Shown in pieces: positions 2,067 to 61,912 of a stretch of 64,000 bases of DNA. How positions within the stretch are numbered: position 1 is the first letter of the stretch; every line of letters begins with the position of its first letter. The stretch is from Longispora fulva. GTDB taxonomy: Bacteria > Actinomycetota > Actinomycetes > Mycobacteriales > Micromonosporaceae. Where the stretch lies: the NCBI RefSeq assembly GCF_015751905.1, contig NZ_JADOUF010000001.1, positions 434,001 to 498,000 of the forward strand. The letters are read 5' to 3'. The translations under genes and the position numbers were made by a program. The notes beneath the pieces were generated by a model. It searched no databases, had not been told where the DNA came from, and saw only the letters and a list, made by a program, of their open reading frames with translations.

Positions 2067-2233
2067 AGGTGCTCCCAGCAGGGCGGATCTTCCGTAGTCG
2101 CAGCGCTACGCAGAGGCTACACGGAGGCTACGCGCCGATTCTTCATCCCATCCGCTCGTCTGTCGAAACTGGAACCAACCCCGCTTGCCGGGCTACCCCC
2201 GCCCAGACCCTCACACGCTCCACGGAGGCAGAC

Positions 2234-2748: not shown

Positions 2749-2920
2749 ACGCCAAAGAGCGACTGCCCACAACGCCGAGCCCCAGCTCAGTGGCCGGGCA
2801 ATCCCGCCCGGCCGTCCCGGTATCCGTGAAGGTTCGGATCGTGATTGCCGCCGACCGAGAACCTGCGGCCCGGCCACGGCCCGCCTAGAATCAGGGTGAA
2901 ATCGGTACTTCGGGGGCACC

Positions 2921-45980: not shown

Positions 45981-46249
45981 CCGTTGCCGCCTGAGGCCCG
46001 TGCTCCGGTCGAGTCGTCGCTCGCCCGCTGGACCAGTTCAGCCATGCGCCGGGCGGTCGGTTGACCGATGAAATCGACGAGCCTGATCCGTACTCCGGTC
46101 TCCTGGCGGACCTTGGCCGCGACCCGGCTCGCCAGGAGAGAGTGTCCACCCAGCTCGAAGAAATCGTCGGTCGGTTCGACCGTCCCGAGACCCAGCACGC
46201 CCGCAAAAATATCGCAGATGGTGCTTTCGACACTCTGGCCAGTTGTCAT
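45977..46249 (-). CDS. Stand-alone peptidyl carrier protein
   Basis: The 90-residue protein is a single carrier domain with the site FFELGGHSLLA, where Ser37 receives phosphopantetheine. The His before the Ser is typical of PCPs rather than PKS ACPs. It likely holds the amino acid activated by the adenylation protein encoded two genes upstream, and can serve as the P450's substrate carrier. Start and stop overlap both neighbours. Confidence 0.92.
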   Translation of the reverse strand: MTTGQSVESTICDIFAGVLGLGTVEPTDDFFELGGHSLLASRVAAKVRQETGVRIRLVDFIGQPTARRMAELVQRASDDSTGARASGGNG

Positions 46250-47340
46250 GTCTTATCCAGTTCTTTCTCTTGCCAGGTAAGGGGAAGGTTGGCTACGGCG
46301 CGGTAACCGCGGTTCCGATGCCAGGTCGCGGGTTGGTCCCTTGTCGGCTGCTCCGCAGCGTGTAGGCGCAGGAGGACCGCCAAGAGAATCCGGTCCGAGA
46401 GGATGGCGCCAGGACACCGGTGTCGTCCGTGGCCGTAGGAGATGTGGCGGCTTCCGTTCCGGATCGGGTCGAAGCTGTCCGGACGTTCGAAGACGGCTGG
46501 GTCCCGGTTCGCCGCCGCGATCAGGATGACGACCGCCTGGCCTTCTGCGACAGGGGTCCCGGCGATCTCGGTGTCCGCCGTCGCGATGCGTCGGACATGT
46601 GGCACCGGTGTGTCAACGCGGAGCAGTTCGTCGACAATGGACTCCGGGCTCGCCCCGGTCTCGCGTAGCCTCCCGTCCGCCTCGAGATCGAGCATTCTCG
46701 CGATGGCCTCGCCGGTGGTGGCTACCCCCGCGAAGGCCATCAGGCTCGCTGTGTGGGAATCCCCGGCAGTCGGGCTGACGGCATTGGCGAGGGCCGCCAG
46801 CGCCTCCTCGGCTCGCCGGACGTGCATCTCGTCGCGGGGATTCGCGAGCAGCCCGGCGGCCGCCTCCGACCAGGCGCACATGGCGGGGCGACTCTCGGCC
46901 GGGAAGCCGACCAGGCTGGCGATCAGGTCTGCCACCAGGGGAGTCGCGAAGGTCGTGATCGCGTCGTGGGTACCGCCGTACATCGGCGCGAAGTACCGTT
47001 CGACAGTGGCGGTGATCTCATCGCGACGCTCACGGACCGCCTTCTCGGTGAGCTTGGTCGTGATGGGAGCACGGAGATCGCGATGAGTCGGCGGGTCTGT
47101 CCACATGAACCATTGGCGAATGTGTCGCAAAATGCCCGCGTCGATGTTCTCGAACGCTCCGCCGCTGAGCCAGCCCGACGAGAGACTGTCGTTCGTCAAA
47201 GCTTCCCGGGCCGCGTCGTACCCCACGACCCACCATGCCTCGCTCACTTCTTCCCACACCACGGGCCCGTCGGCGTGCATGTCGTCATAGACGGGATACG
47301 GGTCCTCCCAGAAACCGGCGACCGGGCCACTGCTAGTCAT
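46246..47340 (-). CDS. Cytochrome P450
   Basis: The 364-residue protein is on the short side for bacterial P450s. The heme ligand loop reads SYGHGRHRCPGAIL (Phe of the usual FG replaced by Tyr). The I-helix has FAGVATTGEAIA and the K-helix VDELLRVDTPV gives the ExxR pair. It lies between the adenylation and carrier genes with overlaps at both ends, a setting seen for P450s that beta-hydroxylate carrier-bound amino acids (NikQ, NovI). Beta-hydroxylation of PCP-bound leucine is therefore the preferred hypothesis, not shown by sequence alone. Confidence 0.9.
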   Translation of the reverse strand: MTSSGPVAGFWEDPYPVYDDMHADGPVVWEEVSEAWWVVGYDAAREALTNDSLSSGWLSGGAFENIDAGILRHIRQWFMWTDPPTHRDLRAPITTKLTEKAVRERRDEITATVERYFAPMYGGTHDAITTFATPLVADLIASLVGFPAESRPAMCAWSEAAAGLLANPRDEMHVRRAEEALAALANAVSPTAGDSHTASLMAFAGVATTGEAIARMLDLEADGRLRETGASPESIVDELLRVDTPVPHVRRIATADTEIAGTPVAEGQAVVILIAAANRDPAVFERPDSFDPIRNGSRHISYGHGRHRCPGAILSDRILLAVLLRLHAAEQPTRDQPATWHRNRGYRAVANLPLTWQEKELDKT

Positions 47341-48823
47341 CGCGGGTCCCCTTCCTGGCCATGGCCGCCACCGCTGCGCGGTCGACCTTGCCGCTGAGCG
47401 TCGTCGGTAGACTGGGAACGTCGACGAATCGGTTCGGGATGAGGCTCGCGGGCAGGCTCCGCAGCAGCGCCACCCGGAAGGCCCTGGCGGAAGTCACTTC
47501 GTCACATACCACCACCGCAACCAGCTCACTGTCGGCGCCGTGGCCGACCACGGATACCGCCGCGCCCCGTACCGCGGGTACCGCCAACAGCGCCGCCTCG
47601 ATCTCTGCGGCTTCCACCCGGATGCCCCGGACCTTCAACTGCTCGCCGTCCACCCTGCCGATGAAGGACACGACGCCGCCAACCCTGCGCCCGAGATCCC
47701 CGGTGCGATACCAGAGTCCCTCCCGTTTCGGTAGCGACACGAACCGCTCGGCGGTGAGAGTCGGGCGATGCAGATATCCGAGCGCGAGCGCGGTGCCGCC
47801 GAGATGAATCTCGCCTGTCACACCCTCCGCAACCTCCGCGAGCCCTTCGCCGAGGATCAGCAGGTCTACCCCGGGGATGGGCGATCCAATGGGCGGAAAG
47901 CTGCCGAGAGGCTCGTCCGCGACCAGATGAGACGTCGCGACGACCGTGGCCTCGGTGGGGCCGTAGTGGTTGACCAGCCTGCATGACGAAGGTGGAGTGC
48001 CGGACACGCGTAGCCGGTCCCCGCCGGTGAGGAGGAACCTGAGCGTCGGAGGAACGAGGCCGGCAGACAGCAGCTCCTCCGCCATCGCCGTGGCCACGAA
48101 CGCCATCGTGCAGCCGGTCTCTGCGGCCCTCGCCGCCAGTTCCTCAGCGACAGTCCTGCTGTCGTCCGAGCACACCACGATCGTGGCTCCGGAGGTGAGG
48201 TACGGCCATATCTCCCACACGGCCGCGTCGAATCCGAGCCCCGCAGTGTGAAGCGCCCGATCCTCAGGCCCGACCTCGTAGGTGGTGTTGTGCCATCGGA
48301 CCAGGTTCGCGAGAGAGTCGTGCCCGACCACCACGCCTTTCGGGCTTCCGGTGCTGCCGGACGTGTAGATCACGTACGCCGGTCCAGTGCCGGCCGCCGG
48401 GTCCGGCTCGAACTCCTCCATCGAGCCGGCCTCGGGGCCAATCCCGAGTTCGTCCAAACCGAGCCGCCGGCCAATTCCCGCTGTCGCGGCCGACGTCATC
48501 GCCAGCGCGGGGTGTGCCTCGTCGACGATTGCCAAGAGCCGGGACGTCGGACTTGCGAGATCCAGGGGCAAGTACGCCGCGCCAGCCAACCAGCACGCGA
48601 CTGCGGCGGCGATGAATGCCGGGCCGCGTTCTGCGGCGATGGCGACGATGTGACCGGGCCCCAGACCTCGCGCGCGGAGCCCCGTCGCGAGTCGCGTGGC
48701 CGAAGCCCACAACTCACCGTAGCTGGTCGCGTGCGTGTCGTCGAGAACAGCGACGCGCTCCGGTGTGCGGCGCCGATGCTCATCGAGCGCGTGAATGATC
48801 ATCGATTTGGCGGTGGTCGCCAT
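47333..48823 (-). CDS. Stand-alone NRPS adenylation protein, leucine-type code
   Basis: The ATG at 48823 has GGGAGAAAGG upstream and gives 496 residues, one adenylation domain (A1-A10). Core motifs: YTSGSTGSPKG (A3), NHYGPTEATV (A5), YRTGDLGRR (A7) and LSGKVDRAAV with the catalytic Lys (A10). Aligned by eye with GrsA, the ten specificity residues read D-A-W-F-L-G-H-V-V-K, one change from the leucine code DAWFLGNVVK. It should load Leu or a similar branched residue onto the separate PCP. It overlaps the P450 gene by 8 bp and the condensation gene by 44 bp. Confidence 0.92.
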   Translation of the reverse strand: MATTAKSMIIHALDEHRRRTPERVAVLDDTHATSYGELWASATRLATGLRARGLGPGHIVAIAAERGPAFIAAAVACWLAGAAYLPLDLASPTSRLLAIVDEAHPALAMTSAATAGIGRRLGLDELGIGPEAGSMEEFEPDPAAGTGPAYVIYTSGSTGSPKGVVVGHDSLANLVRWHNTTYEVGPEDRALHTAGLGFDAAVWEIWPYLTSGATIVVCSDDSRTVAEELAARAAETGCTMAFVATAMAEELLSAGLVPPTLRFLLTGGDRLRVSGTPPSSCRLVNHYGPTEATVVATSHLVADEPLGSFPPIGSPIPGVDLLILGEGLAEVAEGVTGEIHLGGTALALGYLHRPTLTAERFVSLPKREGLWYRTGDLGRRVGGVVSFIGRVDGEQLKVRGIRVEAAEIEAALLAVPAVRGAAVSVVGHGADSELVAVVVCDEVTSARAFRVALLRSLPASLIPNRFVDVPSLPTTLSGKVDRAAVAAMARKGTRDD

Positions 48824-50216
48824 GTCCGTCCTTTCTCCCTTCTGTGTTTCCGGTTCTGTCGCTGTCAAGGCTTGAGGGGCGGGCTCGAGGTCGACCATCG
48901 ATCAAGGAGTGCAGACACTCGCGAACGAGCACGATGAACTCGTTGATCAGTTTGTGTTCGAATCGGATCGGTTCGTAGCTGACCGTGCACTCCAGGCCAG
49001 CTGTCGTCGGCAGGAATTCGACGGCGATCCGACCCCGTGTCTGCACGGATATCCGCTGGATCGGTGGGTTGGCCGATATCTCGAGGCCCAGATCCAGCCC
49101 CTGCGCTCCCTGGTCGAACCCCATCGACAGGCTCGGTCGGGTCGCAAATCTGCGGCTGACGTCCACCTTCTCGTTGATGAGTTCGGTGATCGCCCACTGG
49201 TGTGCCGACGCGACGATGGCGTCCACATGGGCCGCCGCCCAGAGTGCGTCTCCGTCGAGTTCGCGGGGAATCAGGAGTATCGCCTGGCCCGAGAGCCAGC
49301 CGATGGACGTACCGAGACCCAGTCCCTCCCTGAACGACGGATACACGTACATGTAGGCCGGCTCCGGGGACATGCGATTCAGCGCTCCGTAGACCGCCGC
49401 CAGCAAGAGGCTGAACTGGGTGCGTCGGGCCGTTTGGCACGCCTGCCTCAGCCGTTCCGCCCCGATGTCGAGGGAAGCGCGGACCCGGACTGCGTCAGAC
49501 CTGGGAACGCTCATCTCGGTAGTGGTCGCGAAGTTGATCCAGCCGATCGGCGTGACCGCCGCCATCTCCTGAACCAGCGGTTGCCATTCCTCCGGGATCT
49601 CCGCCTCGTCGAACTCTGCCCGCACTGCGGCCAGCGCATCCCGTCCCGACGTATCGGCGGGACCGAGCCCGTCGACGTCCCCGCGGTAGACGGTGCCGAG
49701 GTCTGCCAGGAGCACGGACCACGAGTAGGCATCGACCACCATGTGATCGACTAGGACGGTCACGACGCTGTCCGACCCCGAATTGTCCACGGCTACCGCC
49801 AGGTGGTGCGGGCTCCCGGGAGCGAACTGGGCTACCGCGCGGACGAATTCCTCATCCAGGGCCTCGCCCGACCAGGTGGACAGGGCGATCCGGGACACCA
49901 AACTGACCGGCAGTTCGGGAGCGGACGTCGCATGCCACTGGTCGCCGTGGCGATGGAAGATCAGGCGTAAGCCTTCGTGGTGCCGCACCAACTCGGCAAC
50001 GGTCGATCGGAGCCGCTCCTCACCCACGGGCGTGCTGTACCGGAAGGTTGCCGCTGAATAGAACGGTCGATGTATCCCGGTCGCGTCGATCTCCGCTTGT
50101 TGGTGAATCAGGCGGCGCTCCTGCTGTGGCGTCACCCGTTCGCACCACGTCTCGCACCAGGTGGTCGGTATATCGAGCATGTCGGCCTCGACCGCGTTGG
50201 GTATGAAGGAATTCAC
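48780..50216 (-). CDS. Condensation-domain-like protein with altered active-site motif
   Basis: The GTG at 50216, two bases after the citrate synthase stop, gives 478 residues. The fold is recognisable as a free-standing NRPS condensation domain. The HHxxxDG motif reads DHMVVDAYS: the second His and the Asp remain, but the first His is Asp and the Gly is Ala. The N-terminus (LDIPTTWCETWC) and FSLLLAAVYGALNRMSPEP further on fit the fold. It may use an acceptor other than a PCP-bound amine or act as a transferase/ester synthase. The last 14 codons overlap the adenylation gene. Confidence 0.78.
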   Translation of the reverse strand: MNSFIPNAVEADMLDIPTTWCETWCERVTPQQERRLIHQQAEIDATGIHRPFYSAATFRYSTPVGEERLRSTVAELVRHHEGLRLIFHRHGDQWHATSAPELPVSLVSRIALSTWSGEALDEEFVRAVAQFAPGSPHHLAVAVDNSGSDSVVTVLVDHMVVDAYSWSVLLADLGTVYRGDVDGLGPADTSGRDALAAVRAEFDEAEIPEEWQPLVQEMAAVTPIGWINFATTTEMSVPRSDAVRVRASLDIGAERLRQACQTARRTQFSLLLAAVYGALNRMSPEPAYMYVYPSFREGLGLGTSIGWLSGQAILLIPRELDGDALWAAAHVDAIVASAHQWAITELINEKVDVSRRFATRPSLSMGFDQGAQGLDLGLEISANPPIQRISVQTRGRIAVEFLPTTAGLECTVSYEPIRFEHKLINEFIVLVRECLHSLIDGRPRARPSSLDSDRTGNTEGRKDGHGDHRQIDDHSRAR

Positions 50217-50218
50217 GG

Positions 50219-51316
50219 CTAGCCCAGCCACTTCGAGGTCGGGCTGATCAAGCGGCCCCCTGAGTCGACGTACTCCAGCGCGTGCGCGCACCACCCGACG
50301 ATCCGGGCCATCGCGAAGCAACTGGTGAAGAGTTCCGGGGCGATGCCAGCGGCGGCCAGGACGCCGCCGGCGTAGAAGTCGACATTCACCGAAATCGTGC
50401 GGCCGACTCCGCGCTCGGCGAGCTGTGGGAGCGCGACCGCCTCTATCTCCTGGGCGGTCCGGAAGTAGGCTGGGTTCTCGGTGCGGCACAGGTCGCGGAA
50501 GATCTTGGCGCGAGGGTCGTATACCCGGTACTCGCGATGTCCGAATCCGGGTAGGAGGCGGTTGGCGGCCAGCCGCCCTCTGACCACCTGCTCTGCCGAG
50601 CCGGACATGGCGTCGTTCACCATGGCCCACGCCTCTCCGACTGCGCCGCCATGCGCGGGACCCTTCAGCGTCCCCATCGCGGCAACCACAGCCGAACACA
50701 AGTCGCTTCCGGTCGAGGCGGTGACGCAAGCCGAGAATGTCGATGGGTTCAGGCCATGCTCGGCCATGACCACCAGATACGTCTCGAGGCAGCGGACTTG
50801 GCGGTCATCAGGAGGTGCTCCGGTGGACATGTACAGGAAGTTGGCCGCGAACCCCAGCCCCGGGCGCGGTTCAACGGGAGGTTGACCAGCGCGCCGGCGA
50901 GCGAGCCGTGCCGCAGCCGTCGCGAGCCCGGCCGTCAGCTCGAACGCGCCGTTCACGCTCAGGTCACGGGAGCTGGACTTTTCCAACGCGTCGACGGCCA
51001 GCGCCGCCTTCAGCACATCGATCGCGTCGCCGTCGACCGGGGTGCGGGCGAGCAGGTCGACGGCGGCTGGCGTGAGCTGACTGCACTCGTGAAGACGGTG
51101 TGCGACCCCTGGCGAACCCTTGCTGAACGACGCGTCCGGATCCGGCCATAGATGCTCGATGACATCTTCGAAGGACATCCGGCCGGCGACGTCACGAATA
51201 TCGGCGCCGCCACGCAAGACGAACGTGCCGTTCGGCCCGTCGTAGTGACTCAGTCGGGTGCCGCAGACCATGACCCCCTCGAGCCCGTGAACAATATCTT
51301 GGTCAACGCTGTTCAT
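50219..51316 (-). CDS. Citrate-synthase-like enzyme within an NRPS-like operon
   Basis: The 365-residue protein has all catalytic elements: LKGPAHGGAVGEA (His222), LLPGFGHREYRVYDPRA (His260) and ISVNVDFYAGGVL (Asp313), plus EHGLNPSTFSACV. Length matches citrate or 2-methylcitrate synthases of the small class. It catalyses aldol-Claisen joining of an acyl-CoA with a 2-oxoacid such as oxaloacetate. It is packed between aminotransferase and condensation genes (7 and 2 bp gaps), so it probably builds a precursor acid of the product rather than serving the Krebs cycle. The substrate is not predictable. Confidence 0.88.
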   Translation of the reverse strand: MNSVDQDIVHGLEGVMVCGTRLSHYDGPNGTFVLRGGADIRDVAGRMSFEDVIEHLWPDPDASFSKGSPGVAHRLHECSQLTPAAVDLLARTPVDGDAIDVLKAALAVDALEKSSSRDLSVNGAFELTAGLATAAARLARRRAGQPPVEPRPGLGFAANFLYMSTGAPPDDRQVRCLETYLVVMAEHGLNPSTFSACVTASTGSDLCSAVVAAMGTLKGPAHGGAVGEAWAMVNDAMSGSAEQVVRGRLAANRLLPGFGHREYRVYDPRAKIFRDLCRTENPAYFRTAQEIEAVALPQLAERGVGRTISVNVDFYAGGVLAAAGIAPELFTSCFAMARIVGWCAHALEYVDSGGRLISPTSKWLG

Positions 51317-51323
51317 GACGCTC

Positions 51324-52391
51324 CTAGGCGTTGCAGGAGTGGTGACGGGCGGCCAGCAGCGGGAATACCTCCGACCACAGGCGTCGGCCGCAGACGCCGA
51401 TCCGTGCCCAGTGCGGATAGCCCAGCGTCGCCGCGTCCCGGATGGTGATGCCATGGTGTTCGTGAAGGTGAAGCGCCATCGCCGGAGTCGTGGACCCTAG
51501 GTTGGCCAGAAGGAAATTAGTGTCCGACTCGACGTGGTCGATGGAAACGGAGTTCAGGTCCGCCATCATCCGAGCCCGATCGCTCGTGTTCCGGGTCACG
51601 GCCGAGGCCAGGTCGTTAGGACGGTCGAGGGCGGCCTTCACCCCGGCCAGGGCGAATCGGCTGACACTGAAGGGAATGGCCCGTCGAGTCCGTGCGACTC
51701 GGGCCGCCAGTCCGGGCTCTGCCGCGAGAAATCCACAGCGCAAGCCGGCGAGACCGTGAGCTTTGGAGAAGGTCCGCGTCACGATGATGCCGCCACCTTC
51801 GACCAGTGGCATGGCCGACTCGAAATGGCTCCCGGCGAACTCGGCGTAAGCCTCGTCCACCACCAGCACGCAGCCGTGATCGCGAGCCTGCCGATAGATG
51901 GCGCTGATGCCTCCCGGAGGAAGGCACCTTCCGGTCGGGTTGTGTGGATTGGCCACGAATGCCAGGCGCGCGCCGGGAAGCTTCCGGCGGAAGTCCTCGA
52001 CGTCCATCCCGCCGAGGCCGCACTCGCTGAGCACCGGGTCGGTGCCGAGCGCGTCGGCGACGTACCCGAAGCCGGTGTACGTTCTCTCCGGCAGTAGCAC
52101 TCGATCACCACGTCCGACCGTGGCCAGCCCCGCCAGAAGCAGCGCCTCGTCGCTGCCGTTGCTGACGATGACAGACTCCGCGGAGAGGCCCAGCCCTAGG
52201 GCGATGGTTCCGCGCAGTGGCTCGCACTCGATGTCGGGATACAGGTTGACTCGGTCGATCTCGGCGGCCAGCGCCGCCGTGACGGCTGTCGTCGGCCGGA
52301 GGAGTGATTCGCTTAGCGAAAGCCGAACCCGGAACCGTCTGTCGTGGCCTGGCTCTCTCGCGTACCAGGTCGCTGGTGATGTCGTGTCCAT
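51324..52391 (-). CDS. Class I/II aminotransferase, HisC-like
   Basis: The 355-residue protein is similar to histidinol-phosphate aminotransferases. It has FVANPHNPTGRCLP, VVDEAYAEF with the PLP-contacting Asp/Tyr, and TRTFSKAHGLAGLRCG with the Schiff-base Lys. Size is close to HisC (about 355). In this setting it probably transaminates a pathway 2-oxoacid, or releases one. A carboxylating or decarboxylating variant (threonine-phosphate decarboxylase-like) is also possible because CobD-type enzymes share these motifs. It sits 6 bp downstream of the unrecognised 318-aa protein. Confidence 0.87.
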   Translation of the reverse strand: MDTTSPATWYAREPGHDRRFRVRLSLSESLLRPTTAVTAALAAEIDRVNLYPDIECEPLRGTIALGLGLSAESVIVSNGSDEALLLAGLATVGRGDRVLLPERTYTGFGYVADALGTDPVLSECGLGGMDVEDFRRKLPGARLAFVANPHNPTGRCLPPGGISAIYRQARDHGCVLVVDEAYAEFAGSHFESAMPLVEGGGIIVTRTFSKAHGLAGLRCGFLAAEPGLAARVARTRRAIPFSVSRFALAGVKAALDRPNDLASAVTRNTSDRARMMADLNSVSIDHVESDTNFLLANLGSTTPAMALHLHEHHGITIRDAATLGYPHWARIGVCGRRLWSEVFPLLAARHHSCNA

Positions 52392-52397
52392 CGCCGG

Positions 52398-53354
52398 TCA
52401 CCGCAGCCGGTCGATGTATGTCGGTAGCGCACCAGCTGGTCCCGGCCACTGGTAGTCGTCATCCGTCACACAGGCGAGCGCGGCCATGAAGCTTGGAACC
52501 GACGTGAACGGCAGCACTCTCAGGTTGTCGAGATGCAGCGCGCCGATCTCGATCATCTGGCTGAGCTGTTCGGTGGTGTCATGCAGGACCACGGTCTTCG
52601 CCACCCATTGTGGACGCGCGCAGATCATCCCCAACTCGAAGTTCACGCCGGTGCCGTTGTCCAGGATGAGGATGATTCGATCGACCTCTTCGGCCAGCCG
52701 CTCCAGGCGACTCACCGGGTTCGGGAACTGTCGCTGCTGCTGACCCAGCGCCGTGAACGCCGTTGAACCCAGCCGATTCAGTAGTTCCACCATGATCCAG
52801 ACGCGTTCCAAGTTCCTCAGGCCCAGCGTCTTCTCCACACTTGTCAGCGGATTCAGTGGTGATTCCAACTGCTGGCGGACATACGTGACAGGGCCCGGAT
52901 GGTAGCTCCCGAGAACCAGGACGCTCGGTGACTGTGCCCTGGTCAGCCGCGCGGCCTGGTCAAGCCGCACCGGCTCACTGTTGAGGAAGGCCGCCCGATC
53001 CGCGGCCACTGCCAGGTTCAACGGTCGACGTGGTCCTGGAATCACCGGTCCAGGCACCGGCTCGGCCGGCCGTCCCAATGCCAGCCGGAGCTGGGCCGCC
53101 GCGCTGGATCGATTGAACTCCTCGAGCAGCGCGATCGCCTGATCGTTCAGCCTGTCGACCTGGCCCTCGGGCACCGCCTGAAGCAGCTGTCGCTCGTGGG
53201 CGAAAATCGGACGGGCGTTCTGACTCGTTCGGTTGAGCCGGTGCCAGTGATACTGCGGATCGAACAGGCATCTGGCGAGAGTGTCTTCTAGTGAGAGGCG
53301 GTACTCCACCTCCGGCGACAAAGCCGTGTCCAGCATGGTGGTCATGGCCGACAC
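52398..53354 (-). CDS. Unrecognised protein, possible deoxyribosyltransferase/TIR-like C-terminal domain
   Basis: A GTG at 53354 (ATG at 53345 is an alternative) gives 318 residues that I do not recognise as a whole. Residues 1-130 are helical with Arg/Gln-rich stretches. Residues about 140-300 look like an alpha/beta domain: PSVLVLGSYHPGPVTYVRQQL, then RIILILDNGTGVNFELGMICA, recalling the GTxxELG motif of nucleoside 2-deoxyribosyltransferase and related TIR/SLOG-like folds. It is the first gene of the eight-gene minus operon. It could be a nucleotide-handling enzyme, an immunity protein or a sensor. Confidence 0.6.
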   Translation of the reverse strand: MSAMTTMLDTALSPEVEYRLSLEDTLARCLFDPQYHWHRLNRTSQNARPIFAHERQLLQAVPEGQVDRLNDQAIALLEEFNRSSAAAQLRLALGRPAEPVPGPVIPGPRRPLNLAVAADRAAFLNSEPVRLDQAARLTRAQSPSVLVLGSYHPGPVTYVRQQLESPLNPLTSVEKTLGLRNLERVWIMVELLNRLGSTAFTALGQQQRQFPNPVSRLERLAEEVDRIILILDNGTGVNFELGMICARPQWVAKTVVLHDTTEQLSQMIEIGALHLDNLRVLPFTSVPSFMAALACVTDDDYQWPGPAGALPTYIDRLR

Positions 53355-53675
53355 CAGCCAGTGGCACCGTACGAAGACTTCCAGGCAGCATGAAGCGAAA
53401 CGTCAACCATTGAGATCCCCCGTGTGCGTCTCGGTTGGCCGGCACGTAGTTGAACATAGGTCGAACGGTCCCGCAACCCCGTGTGCACGCCTGCCTGGAC
53501 CTCGTCGCACCGTCGCCCGCGGCGAAGTGGCGCGCCGGCTGGATGCCCTTAAGCGGGCCCGCTGGCATCACTTGGTGTCTATGGCGTGGATCGTCGGGCC
53601 GTGCCCGGTAGGGTCTTGCGGCGCCCAGCGTTGTGGTGGAGAATATCGCCGCCAATCACAACCGCGGGGGTGCAT
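53355..53675. other. Divergent intergenic region of cluster 2
   Basis: About 320 bp separate the minus-strand NRPS-like operon from the plus-strand exporter operon and should hold both promoters. I see no SARP-type heptamer repeats with the spacing used in cluster 1, and no convincing gene. GAATAT at 53641-53646 is a possible -10 for the exporter. Confidence 0.5.
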
Positions 53676-54650
53676 GTGAGTGAAGCAGTGGTGGAAGCGC
53701 GCGGTCTTGGGCGAACATACAAGACAAGCAAAGGTCTTCTGCGGCGCGAAAGTAGGACAGTCGAAGCGGTAAAGGACGTTAGTTTCACCGTGGCCCGGGG
53801 TGAACTCTTCGGCTTGCTCGGGCCGAATGGTGCCGGCAAGACGACCACGATCAAGATGCTGATCACCCTGCTGTTGCCCACCTCCGGCTCGGCTACGGTG
53901 CTTGGGCAGGATGTGGCCAAGGATCCCCAGGCGGTGCGTCGCAGGGTCGGCTATGTGTTCGGCGGCGACCGAGGCCTCTACGAGCGACTGTCTGGTCTGG
54001 ACAACCTCCGGTATTTCGCCGAACTCTACGGAGTGCCGTCGCGGGAGAGTAGACGACGCATAGCGGAGCTGCTGGAGTTGGTGGGGCTGTCGGATCGAGC
54101 CAGGCAGCGGGTTGAAGGCTATTCCCGTGGCATGCGGCAGCGGCTGCACATCGCCCGCGGCTTACTGCACCGACCCGAGGTGCTGTTCCTCGACGAGCCC
54201 AGCATCGGCATCGACCCGGTGGGAGCGCGCGAGCTGCGCGCGACGGTAACGAGGCTCGTCGAGGAGGGCACTACGGTGCTGCTGACCACCCACTACATGT
54301 TCGAAGCCGATGAACTCTGTGATCGCCTGGCCATTATCGCCAACGGCAGCATCGTCGCGGAGGGCACACCGGACGACCTGAAGCGTCGGGTGGCGACCGG
54401 CACCGTGTTCGAAGTCGACGTCTACGGACTTCCGGACGGAGTGGTCGAAGGGCTCCGTCGAGATGCTGACGTGCAGTCGGTGAGCGTCGAGGTGAGGGGA
54501 CAGGCACAGATCCTGACGGTTCATGCCCGGCCCGGCGCTGAGATCGCTTCCACCATGCTGGGGCACCTGGAGGGGAGCCGCTTTGGGCGACTCGCCACCC
54601 GCGAGCCGACCCTGGAGGACGCCTACGTGGAGCTGGTGAGCCTCGCGTGA
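53676..54650 (+). CDS. ABC transporter ATP-binding protein
   Basis: GTG at 53676 is chosen for the GGGGG tract 6 bp before it; an in-frame GTG at 53670 is possible. The 324-residue protein has GPNGAGKTTTIKML, YSRGMRQRLHIARGLL and VLFLDEPSIGIDP, with a C-terminal DrrA-type extension. The signature carries SRGMRQR rather than SGGQ, common in ABC-2 ATPases. A TTA codon occurs in frame at 54162-54164, so translation may need the bldA tRNA. It works with the two permeases encoded next, exporting the cluster 2 product. Confidence 0.92.
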   Translation: MSEAVVEARGLGRTYKTSKGLLRRESRTVEAVKDVSFTVARGELFGLLGPNGAGKTTTIKMLITLLLPTSGSATVLGQDVAKDPQAVRRRVGYVFGGDRGLYERLSGLDNLRYFAELYGVPSRESRRRIAELLELVGLSDRARQRVEGYSRGMRQRLHIARGLLHRPEVLFLDEPSIGIDPVGARELRATVTRLVEEGTTVLLTTHYMFEADELCDRLAIIANGSIVAEGTPDDLKRRVATGTVFEVDVYGLPDGVVEGLRRDADVQSVSVEVRGQAQILTVHARPGAEIASTMLGHLEGSRFGRLATREPTLEDAYVELVSLA

Positions 54651-55420
54651 GAATGTTGCGCCTGTTGGGAGTCGCGTGGTGGCTGCAACTGAAGATGCGC
54701 AGCCGGTCAGCGTTCGATGGCCTCCTGTCCTTGATCTACCCGTTGTTCTTCGCGACGACCATTTTCATGATGTTCGCCCAGGGCGGCGCGGCGGGTAAAG
54801 CGTTGCTGTCAGCTGCGGTCGGGGCCAGCGCGCTGGGTATCTGGTCATCCGTGAGCACGTCAGCGGCGTTTGCCCTGCAGATGGAGCGGCGGCAGGGGAC
54901 GCTGGAGTTGATGGTGCTGTCGCCCCGACCGTTTGCCCTGCTGCTGGTCCCGCTCACGCTATCAATGGCGACGATCGGCGCTTACAGCATGATTGCGACC
55001 TTGCTCTGGGGGAGATTTGTGTTCGGAATCCACCTCGACATCGCGAGCCCGTTGATGTTCCTCTCCTCGGTCGCAATGACAGTGCTGGCCATCGCGATGC
55101 TCGGTGCGCTGATCGCGATCTCGTCGGTCCGCTATCGGTCAGCCTGGGCACTGGGTGCGGCACTGCAGATGCCTATCTGGCTGATCTCGGGCTTCCTCGT
55201 GCCACTTTCAGCGCTGCCGGCGTGGGTGCGGCCCATATCGTGGGTCCTGGCTCCCACCTGGGGGATGAGCGGGATCCACGCGGCGGCGGAAGGGCGTGAC
55301 GCGGCCCGAGACCTCGTGATGTGCTTGCTGATATCGATCGGCTACGGGGTGCTCGGCTCGATCGTCGCCCGCTGGATGGTGCGCTCGGCCCGCGCCAACG
55401 CGACATTGGCGTTGAGCTGA
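54647..55420 (+). CDS. ABC-2 transporter permease
   Basis: The GTG at 54647 overlaps the ATPase stop and gives 257 residues with about six membrane segments. QLKMRSRSAFDGLLSLIYPLFF opens the first, and MPIWLISGFLVPLSALPAWVRP is the conserved ABC-2 block before the last segments. It differs from the neighbouring permease enough that the two should form a heterodimer. Its stop overlaps the next start by one base. Confidence 0.88.
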   Translation: MRMLRLLGVAWWLQLKMRSRSAFDGLLSLIYPLFFATTIFMMFAQGGAAGKALLSAAVGASALGIWSSVSTSAAFALQMERRQGTLELMVLSPRPFALLLVPLTLSMATIGAYSMIATLLWGRFVFGIHLDIASPLMFLSSVAMTVLAIAMLGALIAISSVRYRSAWALGAALQMPIWLISGFLVPLSALPAWVRPISWVLAPTWGMSGIHAAAEGRDAARDLVMCLLISIGYGVLGSIVARWMVRSARANATLALS

Positions 55421-56205
55421 TGAGTAGCCTTCGTCTGTTCTTCGTCGGCGGGCTGACCAGCTACCGCGCTCTGTTCGGCTGGCTCTCTCCGTGGATCCTC
55501 GTGCCCACGTTCATGCTCACGCCGATCTTCCAGATCTTGTTCTTCGTCTACGTGGGCCGCGCCGCCAACGTCGAGGACGACTCCTTCTTTCTGGTCGGCA
55601 ACGCGATGGTCAACGCGGCTGTCCCCTGTCTGTTCGCGATGGGCAATGCCATCGGCGGCGAACGCATGTCGGGCACACTGCCGCTTGTGATGGTATCGCC
55701 GGCGAGGCGGGTGCCGCTGTTTCTGGGCCGCGCGCTCCCGGTGATTCTAAATGGCTTCCTGGTCGCGGTATTCGCACTCGCCGCAGGGGCCACCCTGCTC
55801 CGGATTCACATTCCAGCGGCAGCCTGGGGCGGCATCGCGCTGGCGATCGCCGTGAGTTCGATGTCCTGCACCGGCCTGGGCCTGTTGGGGGCCGCGATCG
55901 CATTGCGCGTGCGAGAGACAGCGGTCATGTCGAACATCATCATGGGCCTGCTGCTCGTTTTCGCCGGCGTCAACGTCCCAACAGACGTTCTGCCGCACTG
56001 GATGCGGAACGTGGCGAACGCCCTGCCGATGACGCACGGCATCCGAGCCACACGCGGGCTCATCTCCGGCGGCTCTTTCGGGGCGGCGGGCCGGGAACTG
56101 CTGTGGGAATTCGCGCTTGGTGCGCTCTACGCCGCGCTGGGCCTGTCGACACTCCGTTGGCTGGAATGGGAGAGCAGGCGGAAGGCGACGCTCGACACCG
56201 CGTAG
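55420..56205 (+). CDS. ABC-2 transporter permease
   Basis: The ATG at 55420 overlaps the previous stop and yields 261 residues with about six hydrophobic helices. Landmarks are WLSPWILVPTFMLTPIFQI, GNAIGGERMSGTLPL and GVNVPTDVLPHWMRN in the typical re-entrant region. It forms the second half of the membrane channel of the cluster 2 exporter. The ATPase plus two permeases arrangement differs from the single-permease exporter in cluster 1. It is followed by an imperfect hairpin. Confidence 0.88.
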   Translation: MSSLRLFFVGGLTSYRALFGWLSPWILVPTFMLTPIFQILFFVYVGRAANVEDDSFFLVGNAMVNAAVPCLFAMGNAIGGERMSGTLPLVMVSPARRVPLFLGRALPVILNGFLVAVFALAAGATLLRIHIPAAAWGGIALAIAVSSMSCTGLGLLGAAIALRVRETAVMSNIIMGLLLVFAGVNVPTDVLPHWMRNVANALPMTHGIRATRGLISGGSFGAAGRELLWEFALGALYAALGLSTLRWLEWESRRKATLDTA

Positions 56206-56222
56206 GAGAGACAGAAAGAGCT

Positions 56223-56271
56223 GCGGTGGCGGTCGGGTGGGCATCACATTGCCCCACTCGATCGCCACCGC
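56223..56271. terminator. Hairpin between convergent exporter and carbamoyltransferase genes
   Basis: GCGGTGGCG (56223-56231) pairs with CGCCACCGC (56263-56271), and the imperfect inner stretch (GTCGGGTGGG against CCCCACTCGAT) extends the stem. It fills the gap between the convergent genes. Confidence 0.65.
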
Positions 56272-56286
56272 TCGGCGTCTGGAGGG

Positions 56287-57963
56287 TCAGACAGTTCCGT
56301 CCTGGGTGTAGAGCACAGCGCCGGACCAGACGTACTTGGTACCACCCCAACGCGTGGCCGAGCCGACGCCGGGAAGGAATCCGCTGCCGGCCAGGTTCGC
56401 GCTGGTATTGCAGAGAACGGGAATCCCGGTGAGCCGGTGGTACTCGGTCAGGATCCGCCCGGCGACGGTTCCCGGAGTGTCGGCGGTGATTGTCTGCAGG
56501 CGCGCGGACCCGTCCAGGTGCGCGACGGCCGGGACCCGATCGGCCCACTCGGTTCGGATGTCGTGCTCGAAAAGCATGTACGGATCAGTGCCACCGGGCC
56601 GGAACACGGTGGCCGCGTGCTCCTGCAGGCAGAGTGGTGCGACCGGCCGGTAGTGTTCACGCCCCTTGATCTTGTTCAACGTGGCCTTCATCGACAAATC
56701 GGTGGCGGGGGAGAGGATGCTCCGGTTGCCGAGCGCGCGGGGTCCCAGCTCTGCCCGTCCATGGAGAACCACCACAGGTTCGTTCTCGGCGGCCAGCAGT
56801 TGGGCGAGCTGTGCCTCGTCACACGGACGGGCCGACCAGCCTGGCGCTGGACCAGTCTGGTCGAGCTCAGGGCCGCTGTAGACATTCCAGTCGAGGGCCA
56901 GGCCATCACCCTGCCGGACCATTTCGCAGGATGCCGTGCCCAGCGCGGCGCCGGAGTCGTTGGGGAACGGCGGGATCCATACCTCCGCGAACAGCCCGGA
57001 GTCTGCGAGCGCGCGGTTCCACTTGATATTGAGAGCGCAGCCGCCGGCCAGGCACAGGTTGGGTGCCGTGCGGTCGGTGCGGTTCAGGTACTGGGCAAGC
57101 CCGCTGATCAGCCGCTGGCCCAGGTACGCCTGGAACGTCGCGATGAGGTCTGCGCTGGACAGGCCAGGAAACAGTTCATCGCGGCGAGTGGCGGCCTGCC
57201 TGCCGAGGTGGAAGGCGACCTTTTCGTTGACGCCGTCCAACTCGCCGAGAAGCGCGTCGAAGATCTCGAAGGCGGATGCGTCTACGGAGCCCAGGGCGGC
57301 GTAGGCCATGGCCTTGCCCGGCACCTCGAGTTGTTGGCGGAGGAATTCGGCCTCGGTCATCGTGGCCTGGTCGCGGGCGTATGGCTCGAGCTGGGAGCAG
57401 AAACCGGTGAACGTGTTACCCACGAGCGTCATGACCGGGGACCGTCTGGTCACGGTGCCCTGGGCGGCGTCCACCTCGAAGAGCCATGGCAGCATGCCAC
57501 CGTCCCAGACGAGAACGAGCGCGTCCTCTCGGCGGCGGGCGAACGGGCTGGTGCAGTACGCGCCCAGGGCGTGGTTGCTCGCGTGGGTGTAGCTCACGTA
57601 GCCGTCGGCGAGGGCGGTCCCCGGAACTCCAGCGAACTCCAGACCACTCAGGACTCCGCTGGGCGTGCTGTCGGGCATGTAGGAGGCAGTGGGGAGGAGG
57701 AACTCGACGCCGTGTCGCCGGGTGGCGACATGGTAGCCCGCTTCCGGCGACCCGGTGTGCCAGCCATCGACCACAAACCGGTCGATGTCGCGCGGGTCGA
57801 CGCCCTGGGCCCGCAACAGCTCAGCGATTTCCGCTAAGTCACCGAGATCGCTGTATCGTCGGCCGTTCTTCAACTTCTCCATCTCGATGGAGAACAACAG
57901 CCGACCGTCGGCGATGACCGCGATGCCGCCGTCGTGCGACACCTTTATGCCACAGATTAACAA
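56287..57963 (-). CDS. O-carbamoyltransferase (NodU/CmcH/TobZ family)
   Basis: A TTG start at 57963 is chosen because GGGGGAGA lies 6-7 bp upstream and the protein then begins LLICGIKVSHDGGIAV, the family's first strand. The 558-residue length matches. The N-terminal Kae1-like domain has YTHASNHALGAYCTSPF, and the YrdC-like part ends with CNTSANLAGSGF. GGCALNIKWNRAL and GRAELGPRALGNRSIL are conserved family blocks. It transfers carbamoyl phosphate to a hydroxyl through carbamoyladenylate. Codon 2 is TTA, making translation bldA-dependent at the very start. The target hydroxyl may come from the P450. Confidence 0.9.
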   Translation of the reverse strand: MLICGIKVSHDGGIAVIADGRLLFSIEMEKLKNGRRYSDLGDLAEIAELLRAQGVDPRDIDRFVVDGWHTGSPEAGYHVATRRHGVEFLLPTASYMPDSTPSGVLSGLEFAGVPGTALADGYVSYTHASNHALGAYCTSPFARRREDALVLVWDGGMLPWLFEVDAAQGTVTRRSPVMTLVGNTFTGFCSQLEPYARDQATMTEAEFLRQQLEVPGKAMAYAALGSVDASAFEIFDALLGELDGVNEKVAFHLGRQAATRRDELFPGLSSADLIATFQAYLGQRLISGLAQYLNRTDRTAPNLCLAGGCALNIKWNRALADSGLFAEVWIPPFPNDSGAALGTASCEMVRQGDGLALDWNVYSGPELDQTGPAPGWSARPCDEAQLAQLLAAENEPVVVLHGRAELGPRALGNRSILSPATDLSMKATLNKIKGREHYRPVAPLCLQEHAATVFRPGGTDPYMLFEHDIRTEWADRVPAVAHLDGSARLQTITADTPGTVAGRILTEYHRLTGIPVLCNTSANLAGSGFLPGVGSATRWGGTKYVWSGAVLYTQDGTV

Positions 57964-57987
57964 TGTGTATCTCCCCCGTGTTGTGTC

Positions 57988-58029
57988 GAGGTGCCTTCCG
58001 CGACGCGTGTCCACCGCGGAAGGCACCTC
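57988..58029 (-). terminator. Perfect 15-bp hairpin between malate dehydrogenase and carbamoyltransferase genes
   Basis: GAGGTGCCTTCCGCG (57988-58002) pairs exactly with 58015-58029 around a 12-base loop. It starts 8 bp after the malate dehydrogenase stop and ends before the carbamoyltransferase RBS, so the two genes are probably not freely cotranscribed although they face the same way. Confidence 0.75.
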
Positions 58030-58037
58030 ACGATTAC

Positions 58038-59036
58038 CTAGCCGAGCAGATGACGGACCGCAGCACGCTCCTCCTCCAGCTCGGCGATGGTGACGCGCAG
58101 CCGATCGGCTGCCCGCTCATCGTGCTGGAGGCCTTCCTGGACGGTCCACGTGCCGTCGGACTTCGCCACCACCGGGTAGCTGAAGAAGAGCCCTTCGGGC
58201 ACGCCGTACTCGCCGCGGCTCTGGACGCCGACGGACGTCCAGTCCCCGGCCGGAGTTCCGGCATTGAGTGAGCGGACGTTGTCGATGACCGCGTTGGCCG
58301 CCGAAGCGGCGGACGACAAGCCGCGTGCGGCGATGATGGCTGCACCGCGCTTCTGCACCGAACTGATGAACTCACCGTTCAGCCAGGCGTCGTCGGTGAT
58401 CACCTCCGGGACTGGACGGCCACCGATCCGGGCGTTGGCGAAGTCCGGGTACTGCGTCGCTGAGTGGTTCCCCCAGATGGCGAGGTTGCTCACCTCGCCG
58501 ACGGGGGTACCGCTCTTCGCGGCGAGCTGGGACTTGGCGCGGTTCTCGTCCAACCTCGTCATCGCGAACCAGCGGTCGGCCGGCACGTCGGGGGCGTTGG
58601 CCGCCGCGATCATGGCGTTGGTGTTACACGGATTGCCGACCACGATAGTGCGGATGTCCGATGCGGCGTGCTGACCGATAGCCTGCCCCTGCGGTCCGAA
58701 CAGGGCGCCGTTCGCGGCGAGCAGGTCGCCGCGCTCCATGCCGTCCTTCCGGGGCGAGGCGCCCAGGAGAAGGGCCCAGGACGCGCCGTCGAACGCCTCC
58801 GCCGGTTTGTCCGTGAGGACGACATCTGTCAGCGCCGGGAACGCCCCGTCACTGAGCTCCATCGCCACACCCTCCAACGCCTTCAGCGCCGGGGTGACCT
58901 CCAGCAGCCGAAGAACGATGGGGACGTCCGGCCCGAACACCTGGCCCGAGGCGATACGGAACAGCAGGGCGTACCCCACCTGCCCCGCTCCGCCGGTGAC
59001 GGCGACGTGCACCGGGTTTGGCTTGTTCACAGACAT
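58038..59036 (-). CDS. Malate dehydrogenase
   Basis: The 332-residue protein is a full-length LDH-like malate dehydrogenase of the actinobacterial/cytosolic type. It has [19 protein letters not shown] for [25 protein letters not shown] with the substrate Arg and [11 protein letters not shown] with the catalytic His. It interconverts malate and oxaloacetate. It lies in cluster 2 with a citrate-synthase-like gene and could supply oxaloacetate for it; alternatively it is the housekeeping gene trapped at this site. It has its own terminator hairpin and a GGAGG RBS. Confidence 0.92.
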
Positions 59037-59179
59037 GTTTCCTCCGAGGACTGCGCGGCCGGTGAGGCCGAACGGCCACCGTGGCTGCGCTCAAATACGA
59101 GTTGCGACGCGGATCTACCCTGACGGGCCCACCGCGTGCTCAGATTACTAAATAGCGCTGGTCAAGGTGGGACCGGTGG

Positions 59180-61120
59180 TCATGTCCCATCGGCCATGGC
59201 CAGCCACTCGGACCGCGGCACGGGACGACCCATGTAGTGCATGAACGTCTCGTGGTTCGTCGAGCCCACCACGTTCTCCGCCCCCACGAGATACCTGATG
59301 TCAGTCGACCACAGGCTGGGCACTACCTCGTCTGTTCCGCCATCCCGCAACGACGCCAACAGCTCGGGTACGTTGAGTTTGAAGTCGACATCTGGGCGGA
59401 TATAGTGATGCCCATCCCGCCACTGTCCACGTACCACCGTGGCGCGGGGCTGTTCGGTCAATTCTGGCAATGGTCCGCATAACGGCATGGTCAACAGGTC
59501 GTAACGGAAGACCTCGTCGATCGCCCACGTGAGCTCTTCGGGCAGCAGCGGCCTTATCGCGTCCCTCCACCAGGATTCGAGCAGTGACCTACCTCCGGCA
59601 GTGGCGAAGATCATCGTGAGCACCGCGCCGAAACTCTCGGTGGCGTCCTTCGCCGACATCGCCCGCAGTTGTGCGGCCTCGGGGGAGTTGGTGACTCCCA
59701 GCCACCGCACGAAACTCAGGACGACAGTCGACTGTGATACGTCGCCCAACTCGAGTAGGGGCAACCAGACATGCCGCAGGACGGCGTTCTCGCCCAACAC
59801 TCGGGCCCAGAACAGGAACGGCTGCATCGCCGCGTTCTCGGCGACACTCATGGTGTCGCTGGCGATGAGGTACTCGAAGTCGTCCGTTGTGCCGCGGACA
59901 GTTTTGAATCCGAAAAGGTCCCGCTTGTTCACGTAGTCGGTGTTCGGCAGCAGGAGCATGGGGTACACCGCGATGCGGGACACCCATCTGGCGAGACGGT
60001 CGTATCCCTTCATAAAGGATTCCACGGTCTCGCCCGGAGCTCCCCAGATGAGTTCGGCGTAGCAGTCGAGCCCCTCTGCGTTGAGCCACTGGACAAGGCT
60101 CTCCCAGGCGTTGACCTTCATGTTGCGCCTGTTCATGCTCTCCAGCGCGCCGTCGTCGAGGGTCTGCAGCGCGAGCGTGAACGACGACGCGAGCCCCGAG
60201 CTCTTCATGAGCTTGACGATCTCGAAGAAGGTCGCCGACTTGTTCTTCGCCCACGACGTGTCGAGTGCGCGCGGATATCCGTACTTGCTCCGCACCTCGA
60301 TCAGGCACTGAACGAATTCCAGGTCCGCCGCCAGCATCCCGAAATTCGCGTCGCACAACACGACGGTGTGAACCTGCAGGCGCCCCAGGACTTCGAGCTC
60401 CTGGCGGAGACGGTCCATGGAAAATGAGCGAACCTTCTGACCGACGGCGCCGCCCCAGTAGCAGAAGGAGCACTTGTACGGGCAGCCCCGGTTGGTTTCC
60501 ATCAACGCGACGTCGTACCTGAACTGACCGGCATCGTCGGTCAGAGGTATGGCACCGGTCAGAATCGGTGAAGGAATTTCATCCAGATCTTCGATCCGCG
60601 GCTGTTCCGGAGTCGTCTCGATTCCAGCTGTGCCGCGAAAACTGATGCCTCCAATTTCGGACAAATTGTCCATCGGGTCGCCAGCCATCCAGGCCCGGAG
60701 CAGGTCGCGGAAGACCCATTCACCCTCGCCGTTGACGATGATGTCGACGCCAGGGTACGCCGGTAGCACGTCCTGGGCCTGATGCGCGACATGAGGGCCG
60801 CCGAAGACCACCCACCCCTCCGGGTTCAACTGTTTGAAAGCCTTCGCCAATTCGCCAAACGCGCGGGCGTTCCAACCCATTACTGAAAACGCCATCACAT
60901 CCGGGACCGTGTCCTGGAACAGTTCGAGTGCCATGTCGGCGATGCTGAGACCGCCGCGAAAGTTGGCGATGTCGATGCTTGCTGCGGCAGCAATATCATC
61001 GTCTGACAGCGCCGCGGCCTTGAGGTATCCCGCCGCCAACGGCATAGATTCCAGTGGCATGTCCCAGACGCCTTGTTGCACGATCACGACACGTAATGTG
61101 TCCGGTGTCCTCCGAGCCAT
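59180..61120 (-). CDS. Radical SAM protein with probable N-terminal cobalamin-binding domain
   Basis: The ATG at 61120 with GAGGAGG 6 bp upstream is preferred to a TTG at 61144; the product has 646 residues. Residues 5-150 look like a B12-binding-type Rossmann domain (VFGGPHVAHQAQDV, IIVNGEGEW), followed by the radical SAM core with Cys213, Cys217 and Cys220 in NRGCPYKCSFCYWGG. About 250 further residues follow. The class includes methyltransferases acting on unactivated carbons (Fom3, PhpK, GenK groups) and ring-forming enzymes. Carbon methylation of a precursor is plausible. It lies 39 bp after the methyltransferase gene. Confidence 0.87.
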   Translation of the reverse strand: MARRTPDTLRVVIVQQGVWDMPLESMPLAAGYLKAAALSDDDIAAAASIDIANFRGGLSIADMALELFQDTVPDVMAFSVMGWNARAFGELAKAFKQLNPEGWVVFGGPHVAHQAQDVLPAYPGVDIIVNGEGEWVFRDLLRAWMAGDPMDNLSEIGGISFRGTAGIETTPEQPRIEDLDEIPSPILTGAIPLTDDAGQFRYDVALMETNRGCPYKCSFCYWGGAVGQKVRSFSMDRLRQELEVLGRLQVHTVVLCDANFGMLAADLEFVQCLIEVRSKYGYPRALDTSWAKNKSATFFEIVKLMKSSGLASSFTLALQTLDDGALESMNRRNMKVNAWESLVQWLNAEGLDCYAELIWGAPGETVESFMKGYDRLARWVSRIAVYPMLLLPNTDYVNKRDLFGFKTVRGTTDDFEYLIASDTMSVAENAAMQPFLFWARVLGENAVLRHVWLPLLELGDVSQSTVVLSFVRWLGVTNSPEAAQLRAMSAKDATESFGAVLTMIFATAGGRSLLESWWRDAIRPLLPEELTWAIDEVFRYDLLTMPLCGPLPELTEQPRATVVRGQWRDGHHYIRPDVDFKLNVPELLASLRDGGTDEVVPSLWSTDIRYLVGAENVVGSTNHETFMHYMGRPVPRSEWLAMADGT

Positions 61121-61159
61121 CCCCCGCCTCCTCGGTCTATTCAATATTTGTGTGCTTTC

Positions 61160-61912
61160 CTACTTCGCGCGGCACACGAAGTACCAGCGCGGAGCGAAAG
61201 ACTTGATCCATGGAAGATTGGAAACTGCGAAATCCAGGTCGTACAGTTGGGCGGACGCATGTATCACCGCGTCGAGGCCCTGCAGCCGGGAGATGACGGG
61301 CAGGGATCGCCAGATCTCCATGACGCCAAATCCGTAGACCCTCTCCGGGACGAGGCCCACCTGTCCCAGGAGCTGCCTGAGTTCTTGATAGCGGTACGCG
61401 TTGTACGGAACGCCCTGGTCGGCCCACAGCGCCTTGAAGTACTCGGAACTCGGGTGCTGGCTTCCCGCCATGTCGAGCACGACTCGGCCGCCGGGGCGGA
61501 CGACTCGTGCGATCTCCTGGAGAATCGGCCGGTCCTCCGGCACTACCGACAGCACGGCGAATGAGTAAGCCATGTCGAAGGAGTTGTCCCCGAACGGCAG
61601 GGCTTTCGCGTTCTCCTGACGAAGTTCGACGTTTGAGATCTCGAGCTCGGCGAGGCGGTCGCGCCCTGACTGCAGTACCTCGTCGTTGAGGTCCACGCCC
61701 GTCACATGTCGATAGTGAGGGGCCGCCTGAATCGCGTACAGCCCGTTGGCGCACCCGACGTCGAGCGCTAGGGAGTCGGAATCCGAGTAGCGCCTCAGAA
61801 GCTCAGACCGCCATCGGTTCGCGACCACGCGATGAGGTCGTTCGAATCCGTAGGTCTTTGCTCTCTCCGTCATGTATTCGTTCAGGGGGAGTTCGTCCGG
61901 TGAAATGGTCAT
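61160..61912 (-). CDS. Class I SAM-dependent methyltransferase
   Basis: The 250-residue protein has LALDVGCANGLYAIQAA as the SAM loop, VTGVDLNDEVL as the acidic residue after strand 2, and VLDMAGSQHPSSEYF after strand 5, matching the UbiE/Methyltransf_11 class. The substrate is unknown; it may be N- or O-methylation in cluster 2. It begins the minus-strand group with the radical SAM protein. The C-terminal 70 residues (VYGFGVMEIWRSLPVISRL) are longer than the minimal fold and may shape substrate choice. Confidence 0.88.
   Translation of the reverse strand: MTISPDELPLNEYMTERAKTYGFERPHRVVANRWRSELLRRYSDSDSLALDVGCANGLYAIQAAPHYRHVTGVDLNDEVLQSGRDRLAELEISNVELRQENAKALPFGDNSFDMAYSFAVLSVVPEDRPILQEIARVVRPGGRVVLDMAGSQHPSSEYFKALWADQGVPYNAYRYQELRQLLGQVGLVPERVYGFGVMEIWRSLPVISRLQGLDAVIHASAQLYDLDFAVSNLPWIKSFAPRWYFVCRAK

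Follow-up and report, generated by a model that had tools for sequence, protein, structure and literature searches.

A rare protein with a retron-effector-like NDT-superfamily domain, a candidate pathway enzyme, at the head of an operon in an NRPS-type gene cluster of Longispora fulva

The leading gene of a minus-strand run in the analysed window, a 64,000-nucleotide stretch of the Longispora fulva genome, encodes a rare protein, here named Q. Its C-terminal half resembles the nucleoside deoxyribosyltransferase (NDT)-like domain of retron effectors, and Q is most likely a pathway enzyme of the NRPS-type cluster in which it lies, a reading to which a probability of about one half was given. The fold, catalysis, substrate and role described below for Q are those that we infer. 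With Q, a peptide cluster that is recognisable in its other parts has a concrete unexplained step, and the resemblance hints at an immunity-type enzyme fold that was taken into natural-product metabolism.

Q is a protein of 318 amino acids encoded by the open reading frame at positions 52398-53354 (minus strand) with a GTG start at 53354, from which the alternative ATG starts at 53345 and 53336 were indistinguishable. The frame is a real coding gene, because its GC content by codon position is 0.68/0.45/0.77 and because a relative with 33% identity was found at E 5.6e-26. An earlier note made from the letters of the window had called Q an unrecognised protein and the first gene of an operon, and both statements hold: Q heads the run, with the next gene 6 bp on, and Pfam, NCBIfam, PADLOC and PHROGs yielded zero families at E ≤ 10 (most matches weaker than about 0.1 are lost to the HMMER filters), neither PF05014 nor the NCBIfam retron St85 effector family being matched. 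The search against the PDB sequences gave chance-level matches only. The N-terminal part (residues 1-104; 53043-53354, minus strand), described in the same note as a helical domain, was predicted to be mostly helical, but in a model of low confidence (pLDDT 40), and was assigned to no family.

The relative belongs to Plantactinospora endophytica, a member of another genus in the same bacterial family, and aligned with Q residues 20-296, the overall identity of the two proteins being 33-34%. When 84,980 species were scanned by pattern, an approach that reaches close relatives best, the Q sequence alone returned no locus and the alignment of the two proteins returned the one in Plantactinospora. 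Beyond these two, chance-type matches only were obtained in 394 genomes of the class, 354 of the family, 397 of the order, 396 of the phylum and 220 of one other family; these draws overlap, few candidates were scored per genome, and the two-sequence profile was used for the order, phylum and other-family draws and not for the class and family draws. The order and phylum profile searches did not return the Plantactinospora genome, which may or may not have been drawn, and scored 5 candidates per listed genome, so that misses are possible. Five weak matches in the class draw (E 5e-4 to 8e-3), one in the family draw (G637, E 9.4e-4) and one in the other-family draw (G1507, E 0.009) were dropped as chance since they were partial and left the motif uncovered; internal stops were present in 5 of the 7. 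Phage and plasmid matches of the P. endophytica relative at E 0.9-5, with the phage match located in a gene adjoining a baseplate gene, were also rejected, and no member of the Q family was found in the searched viral contigs or the phage and plasmid collections. With two members found, Q looks like a rare protein by these searches.

Q and its relative were aligned into a two-sequence profile, which was compared by hhalign with home-made family profiles. The comparison with retron St85 effectors (8 sequences) gave a score of 46.8 (Prob 84, P 7.7e-6) over 65 columns with 28% identity, the best stretch being Q residues 210-275, and 150 column shuffles gave a mean of 13.2 and a maximum of 20.5. 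The NDT profile (10 sequences) scored 38.8 (Prob 70, P 4e-5) over 30 columns, residues 218-247, a value reached by 0 of 300 column shuffles (mean 12.8, maximum 22.2), and an NDT plus MilB-type profile (13 sequences) scored 37.8 over 94 columns, residues 154-260. The MilB-type profile (4 sequences) scored 24.4, which speaks at the superfamily level only, and the CAP12 profile (9 sequences) 21.6, the maximum of 150 shuffles being 19.0 in each case. The TIR_2 profile (PF13676, 12 sequences) scored 17.0, and 3 of 150 shuffles were at or above this value (maximum 19.4). The NDT-like reading of the motif in the earlier note was therefore supported by a sensitive profile search, in which both the NDT and the retron profiles stood well above the column shuffles. 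The same note's wording "TIR-like" is weakly backed by the TIR_2 score, although two TIR domains stand in the top 20 of the Foldseek list for a poor full-length model, and Q as a TIR protein was demoted for the shuffles that reached that score.

The effector of Retron-Eco1 from E. coli BL21 served as the seed of the retron set, which contained two near-identical sequences (L059 and L063, 276/293 residues). For the NDT profile, five of 14 family-search loci (L013-L019, L023-L029) were combined with five phage NDTs (L030-L034), while L016-L019, which were sub-threshold, and L025-L029, which were above the cut-off and gave no usable frame, were left out; the TIR_2 profile used 12 of 14 loci and the CAP12 profile 9 of 9, with L021 and L022 unused. 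The retron profile was built after the library matches of the relative had hinted at retron effectors, and an initial assignment to NDTs at large gave way to the present one when the PADLOC and NCBIfam matches named such effectors. These matches were PADLOC NDT_II-A (E 8e-5) and the NCBIfam retron St85 effector family NF038232 (E 9e-4, 19 bits, short of the cut-off of 100), followed by the NDT families PHROG 1817 (E 0.0035) and Pfam PF05014 (E 0.019, 15.5 bits, short of the gathering cut-off of 28.8). BLASTP of Q and of the relative against the Eco1 effector was not significant, the best matches (E 0.89 and 0.096) lying in other regions, and a piece of Q at the motif region was identical to the effector at 12 of 40 positions (E 0.31). 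Q alone and the relative alone each scored the retron profile highest among the four profiles tried, and the retron and NDT profiles scored only 23.9 against each other, so that the Q family lies between them, nearer the retron side. Taken as sequence evidence, the comparisons argue strongly for an NDT-superfamily domain in the C-terminal half of Q, with the NDT-like domain that retron St85 (type II-A) effectors carry as its nearest counterpart. This putative alpha/beta domain was placed at residues 145-283 (52506-52922, minus strand), with limits set by the strands that were modelled for the core (see below). The suggestion of a role in immunity, also made in the earlier note, was apt at the family level, as the closest profiles are those of retron St85 and NDT_II-A effectors.

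Structure prediction was performed with AlphaFold2. The model of full-length Q, made with two alignment rows, had a pLDDT of 40 and was set aside as a structure, and the model of the core (residues 138-302) had a pLDDT of 58.9 and a pTM of 0.57 with an alternating strand-helix order. No Foldseek match at E ≤ 0.001 was obtained with the full-length model or with the core model against PDB and BFVD. For the full-length model, 11 rows of the top 20 in the Foldseek list were DNPH1, RCL or BcmB, and the probabilities of the two TIR rows (0.91 and 0.87) were higher than that of the first row (0.84); for the core model, the yeast protein 1jzt ranked first and BcmB second in the PDB. In the VIA-align list of 50 rows for the core model, ranks 1-15 (Z 7.4-8.2) all belong to RCL, DNPH1, BcmB or a putative NDT. 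GTPases appear among the rows from rank 16 onwards (Z 7.3), which leaves a lead of less than 1 Z unit, receiver-domain folds are likewise close behind, and the Retron-Eco1 effector stands at ranks 36-37 (Z 6.7-6.8, 19-20% identity). The predicted core is consistent with the five-stranded flavodoxin-like NDT fold, short of proof. The weakness of the models, the closeness of GTPase and receiver-domain folds in the VIA list and the lack of a library match for Q itself would suit an unrelated Rossmann-like protein with an NDT-resembling motif acquired by convergence. This explanation is very improbable given that the retron and NDT profile scores are far above the shuffles, that the MilB-type and CAP12 scores are above them less strongly (0/150 each), and that the matches of the relative in four libraries are to NDTs or to retron effectors of NDT type.

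A GTxxELG-like motif after a hydrophobic strand had been pointed out in the earlier note, and the motif NGTGVNFELGMICA (residues 233-246; 52617-52658, minus strand) indeed follows IILILD. Among 20,000 residue shuffles of Q, scored with patterns written after the sequence had been inspected, G...ELG occurred in 0.57% and the full pattern of Asp, hydrophobic strand and motif in 0.01%. Residue E240 (codon 52635-52637, minus strand) was aligned with the catalytic Glu of MilB, E103, and, in the Retron-Eco1 effector, with E106, for which a PDB title carries E106A. In MilB, E103 is presumed to be the nucleophile and the E103A variant is inactive; contacts to the sugar, base and phosphate are made by D78, S97 and G99 (PMC4081090); in DNPH1, the base is protonated by D80 and the attack is made by E104 (PMC10603095). 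MilB E103 and G99 correspond to Q E240 and G236, which are kept in 15/15 alignment rows, and the nucleophile Glu in G-x3-E-[LI]-G is present in Q, in the relative and throughout these 15 rows. In 10/10 rows of the alignment with retron effectors, the column of E240 holds the Glu of ELG (Eco1 E106). The context of E240, ELGMICA, is identical in Q and its relative, at 33-34% overall identity.

Among the other positions of the active site, the acid column (MilB D78, a sugar and base contact; DNPH1 D80) has changed: Q has L217 there, the relative has Thr, and the 13 references have Asp (10) or Asn (3). The helix Glu before the strand, found in 8/8 retron effectors (two of them near-identical), is missing from both members, which have Leu (Q) and Thr (relative). 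The column of MilB S97, a phosphate contact, holds a Ser or Asp six residues before the Glu; it is a gap in Q and Ala in the relative, the loop length being different, and the loop before the glycine carries an E-S pair in the relative, as in retron effectors, and D-N in Q. The loop ahead of E240 differs in length from that of NDTs, and the spacing of 13 from the Glu to the Lys is the same as in the Eco1 effector and longer than in most NDTs used. A Tyr or Phe of strand 1, which serves sugar recognition and is present in 13/13 references, faces only Leu and Val in the modelled Q strand 145-148, where the alignment of strand 1 is unreliable. As judged from these alignments, the Q family has retained the residue at the nucleophile position and altered the one at the acid position; E223 of Q, an Asp in the relative, may for example stand in for the acid residue.

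The loss of the acid position in both members, together with the different length of the loop before the Glu, would suit a pseudo-enzyme, whose non-catalytic domain binds a nucleotide or sugar-nucleotide and serves to regulate or scaffold the stand-alone enzymes of the NRPS, and so would the position of Q in an operon with stand-alone adenylation, condensation and peptidyl carrier protein (PCP) genes. The identity of the nucleophile-position Glu and of ELGMICA in proteins as divergent as these speaks against it, by argument and not by test, and a pseudo-enzyme is regarded as rather unlikely.

The genes that follow Q on the minus strand encode a HisC-like class I/II aminotransferase (51324-52391; Pfam E 5.7e-43, TIGR01141 below cut-off), a citrate-synthase-family protein (50219-51316; Pfam E 4.1e-86), a stand-alone condensation domain with a GTG start (48780-50216; Pfam), a stand-alone adenylation domain (47333-48823; PDB matches to NRPS adenylation domains), a cytochrome P450 (46246-47340; Pfam), a stand-alone PCP (45977-46249; Pfam) and an ATP-grasp or L-amino-acid-ligase-like protein (44676-45980; Pfam and NCBIfam). 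On the other side of Q lie divergent ABC transporter genes, an ATPase and two permease-like frames (53586-56205, plus strand; translations read by eye), and then, on the minus strand, genes for a NodU-type carbamoyltransferase (56287-57954; Pfam and NCBIfam), a malate-dehydrogenase-family protein (58038-59036; NCBIfam 489.9 bits, cut-off 271), a KedN5-family methylcobalamin radical SAM enzyme (59180-61144; NCBIfam 937 bits, cut-off 700) and a SAM-dependent methyltransferase (61160-61912; Pfam). No other nucleoside-pathway enzyme was recognised in the window cluster.

Several further observations were made on this cluster. The usual condensation-domain motif is HHxxxDG, and the domain at 48780-50216 reads DHMVVDA, with the first His replaced. 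The malate-dehydrogenase-family gene, which sits between the carbamoyltransferase and B12 radical SAM genes, is possibly a resistant target copy or a recruited dehydrogenase. A literature search retrieved no paper on KedN5 with methylcobalamin. The third-position GC is 0.75-0.87 in the right-hand cluster (44676-61912) and mostly 0.9-0.97 in the left, polyketide-type part, in a list filtered at third-position GC >0.75 and with the frames of the left part presumed to be genes; this gap suggests separate origins of the two adjacent clusters.

Both known members of the Q family sit in NRPS-type clusters. The region of the P. endophytica relative contains PCP-condensation, PCP, condensation and adenylation genes. 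Of 17 window proteins, Q included, that were compared with a 40-kb Plantactinospora stretch, only Q, the carrier and the adenylation domain gave matches, along with a weak one for the methyltransferase, so that the two clusters share the Q family but hardly the pathway. The gene before the relative encodes an IU nucleoside hydrolase (family match E 5e-89), whose stop is overlapped by 4 bases (ATGA) if the start of the relative is the ATG at L011:9959, and the next frame encodes an MFS exporter. As a separate observation in the Plantactinospora cluster, a long frame that looks like a lantibiotic-dehydratase-type gene was read by eye beside the NRPS genes (L010, about 1950-4457).

This placement of the relative between nucleoside hydrolase and exporter genes is a detoxify-and-export layout, and self-protection fits it, as a pathway role of Q fits the operon. 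Q could then be a retron-effector-like NAD+ or nucleotide hydrolase directed against phage or against a toxic nucleotide-like intermediate, and not a builder of the product, which would also agree with retron effectors being the closest profiles. We consider such an immunity or self-protection role quite improbable. The single reverse transcriptase (RVT_1) match in the L. fulva genome is at 7.12 Mb and Q at 0.486 Mb, and the single match in Plantactinospora is on a contig other than that of the relative; 6 bp separate Q from a biosynthetic aminotransferase gene; and the family was not found in the plasmid, phage and viral sequences searched. Because the RVT_1 matches lie so far away, Q as part of a retron was rejected.

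For the preferred reading of Q as a pathway enzyme, a mechanism can be proposed by analogy with the chemistry established for the superfamily. E240 would attack the anomeric carbon of an N-ribosylated nucleotide, the substrate being NAD(P)+, a nucleoside monophosphate or an intermediate of the pathway that has an N-ribosyl bond, and a covalent glycosyl-enzyme would form at E240, after which Q would release the base or hand the sugar to an acceptor. The changed acid residue may leave room for slow hydrolysis, for transfer to another acceptor or for no catalysis. The Retron-Eco1 effector is reportedly, by the title of work by Carabias in 2024, an NAD+-hydrolysing filament protein, and NAD+ is for this reason a fair first candidate substrate beside nucleoside monophosphates. 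A more specific proposal, doubtful at this stage, is that a retron-effector-type NAD+ or nucleotide N-glycosidase domain was recruited to NRPS catalysis, where NAD+ or a nucleotide would supply a base, ribosyl or ADP-ribosyl unit and the altered acid would turn hydrolysis into transfer. Among the papers listed by the literature searches, none treats an NDT-like protein as belonging to an NRPS pathway, which is not proof of absence; an annotated NDT is the last frame of an NRPS-bearing sponge cosmid, and no link is stated in the part of that paper that describes it (PMC3397433).

Compared with known systems, and in the tests run, Q fits the full definition of neither the NDT nor the retron-effector family. 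The retron St85/type II-A effectors (Retron-Eco1, NF038232, PADLOC NDT_II-A) are the best profile match to the Q family and share with Q the strand Asp, the hydrophobic strand, an acidic residue plus Ser or Asn before the glycine loop, the ELG and a following glycine block; the spacing to the next Lys-led strand is that of the Eco1 effector. Unlike these effectors, in which the domain is N-terminal, Q has it in the C-terminal part with a longer insert after strand 1, lacks the helix Glu and a nearby reverse transcriptase, and lies, like its relative, in a biosynthetic cluster. With NDTs (PF05014), Q shares G-x3-E-[LI]-G with the catalytic Glu and a profile score well above the null, whereas Q has no family match and its relative falls below the cut-off, the acid-column Asp or Asn is missing in both, no Ser or Asp of the Q family was aligned in the loop column, where the loop length differs, and Q has an extra N-terminal part. 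CAP12/PCTIR proteins are similar in that CAP12 has an ELG-like motif and scored above 150/150 shuffles, but the CAP12 and TIR scores are clearly below those of the retron and NDT profiles.

A plain MilB-like CMP N-glycosidase was demoted for the weaker profile (24.4, four sequences) and the lost acid (D78); no counterpart of S97 was aligned in the loop of differing length. A clear enzyme of this BlsM/MilB type was seen in another genome of the same bacterial family (G736, L015 1435-2010; PDB 5vto, E 3e-23), where it directly precedes an aminotransferase-like frame, read by eye, in a possible nucleoside-antibiotic cluster. MilB, BlsM, BcmB and DNPH1 are neighbours of Q in the fold searches, the MilB-type profile is above its null, and MilB is an NDT-family enzyme that acts within an antibiotic pathway (PMC4081090). 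If the preferred reading of Q is true, it links NDT-like antiphage effectors with the NDT-family enzymes of antibiotic assembly, MilB and BlsM.
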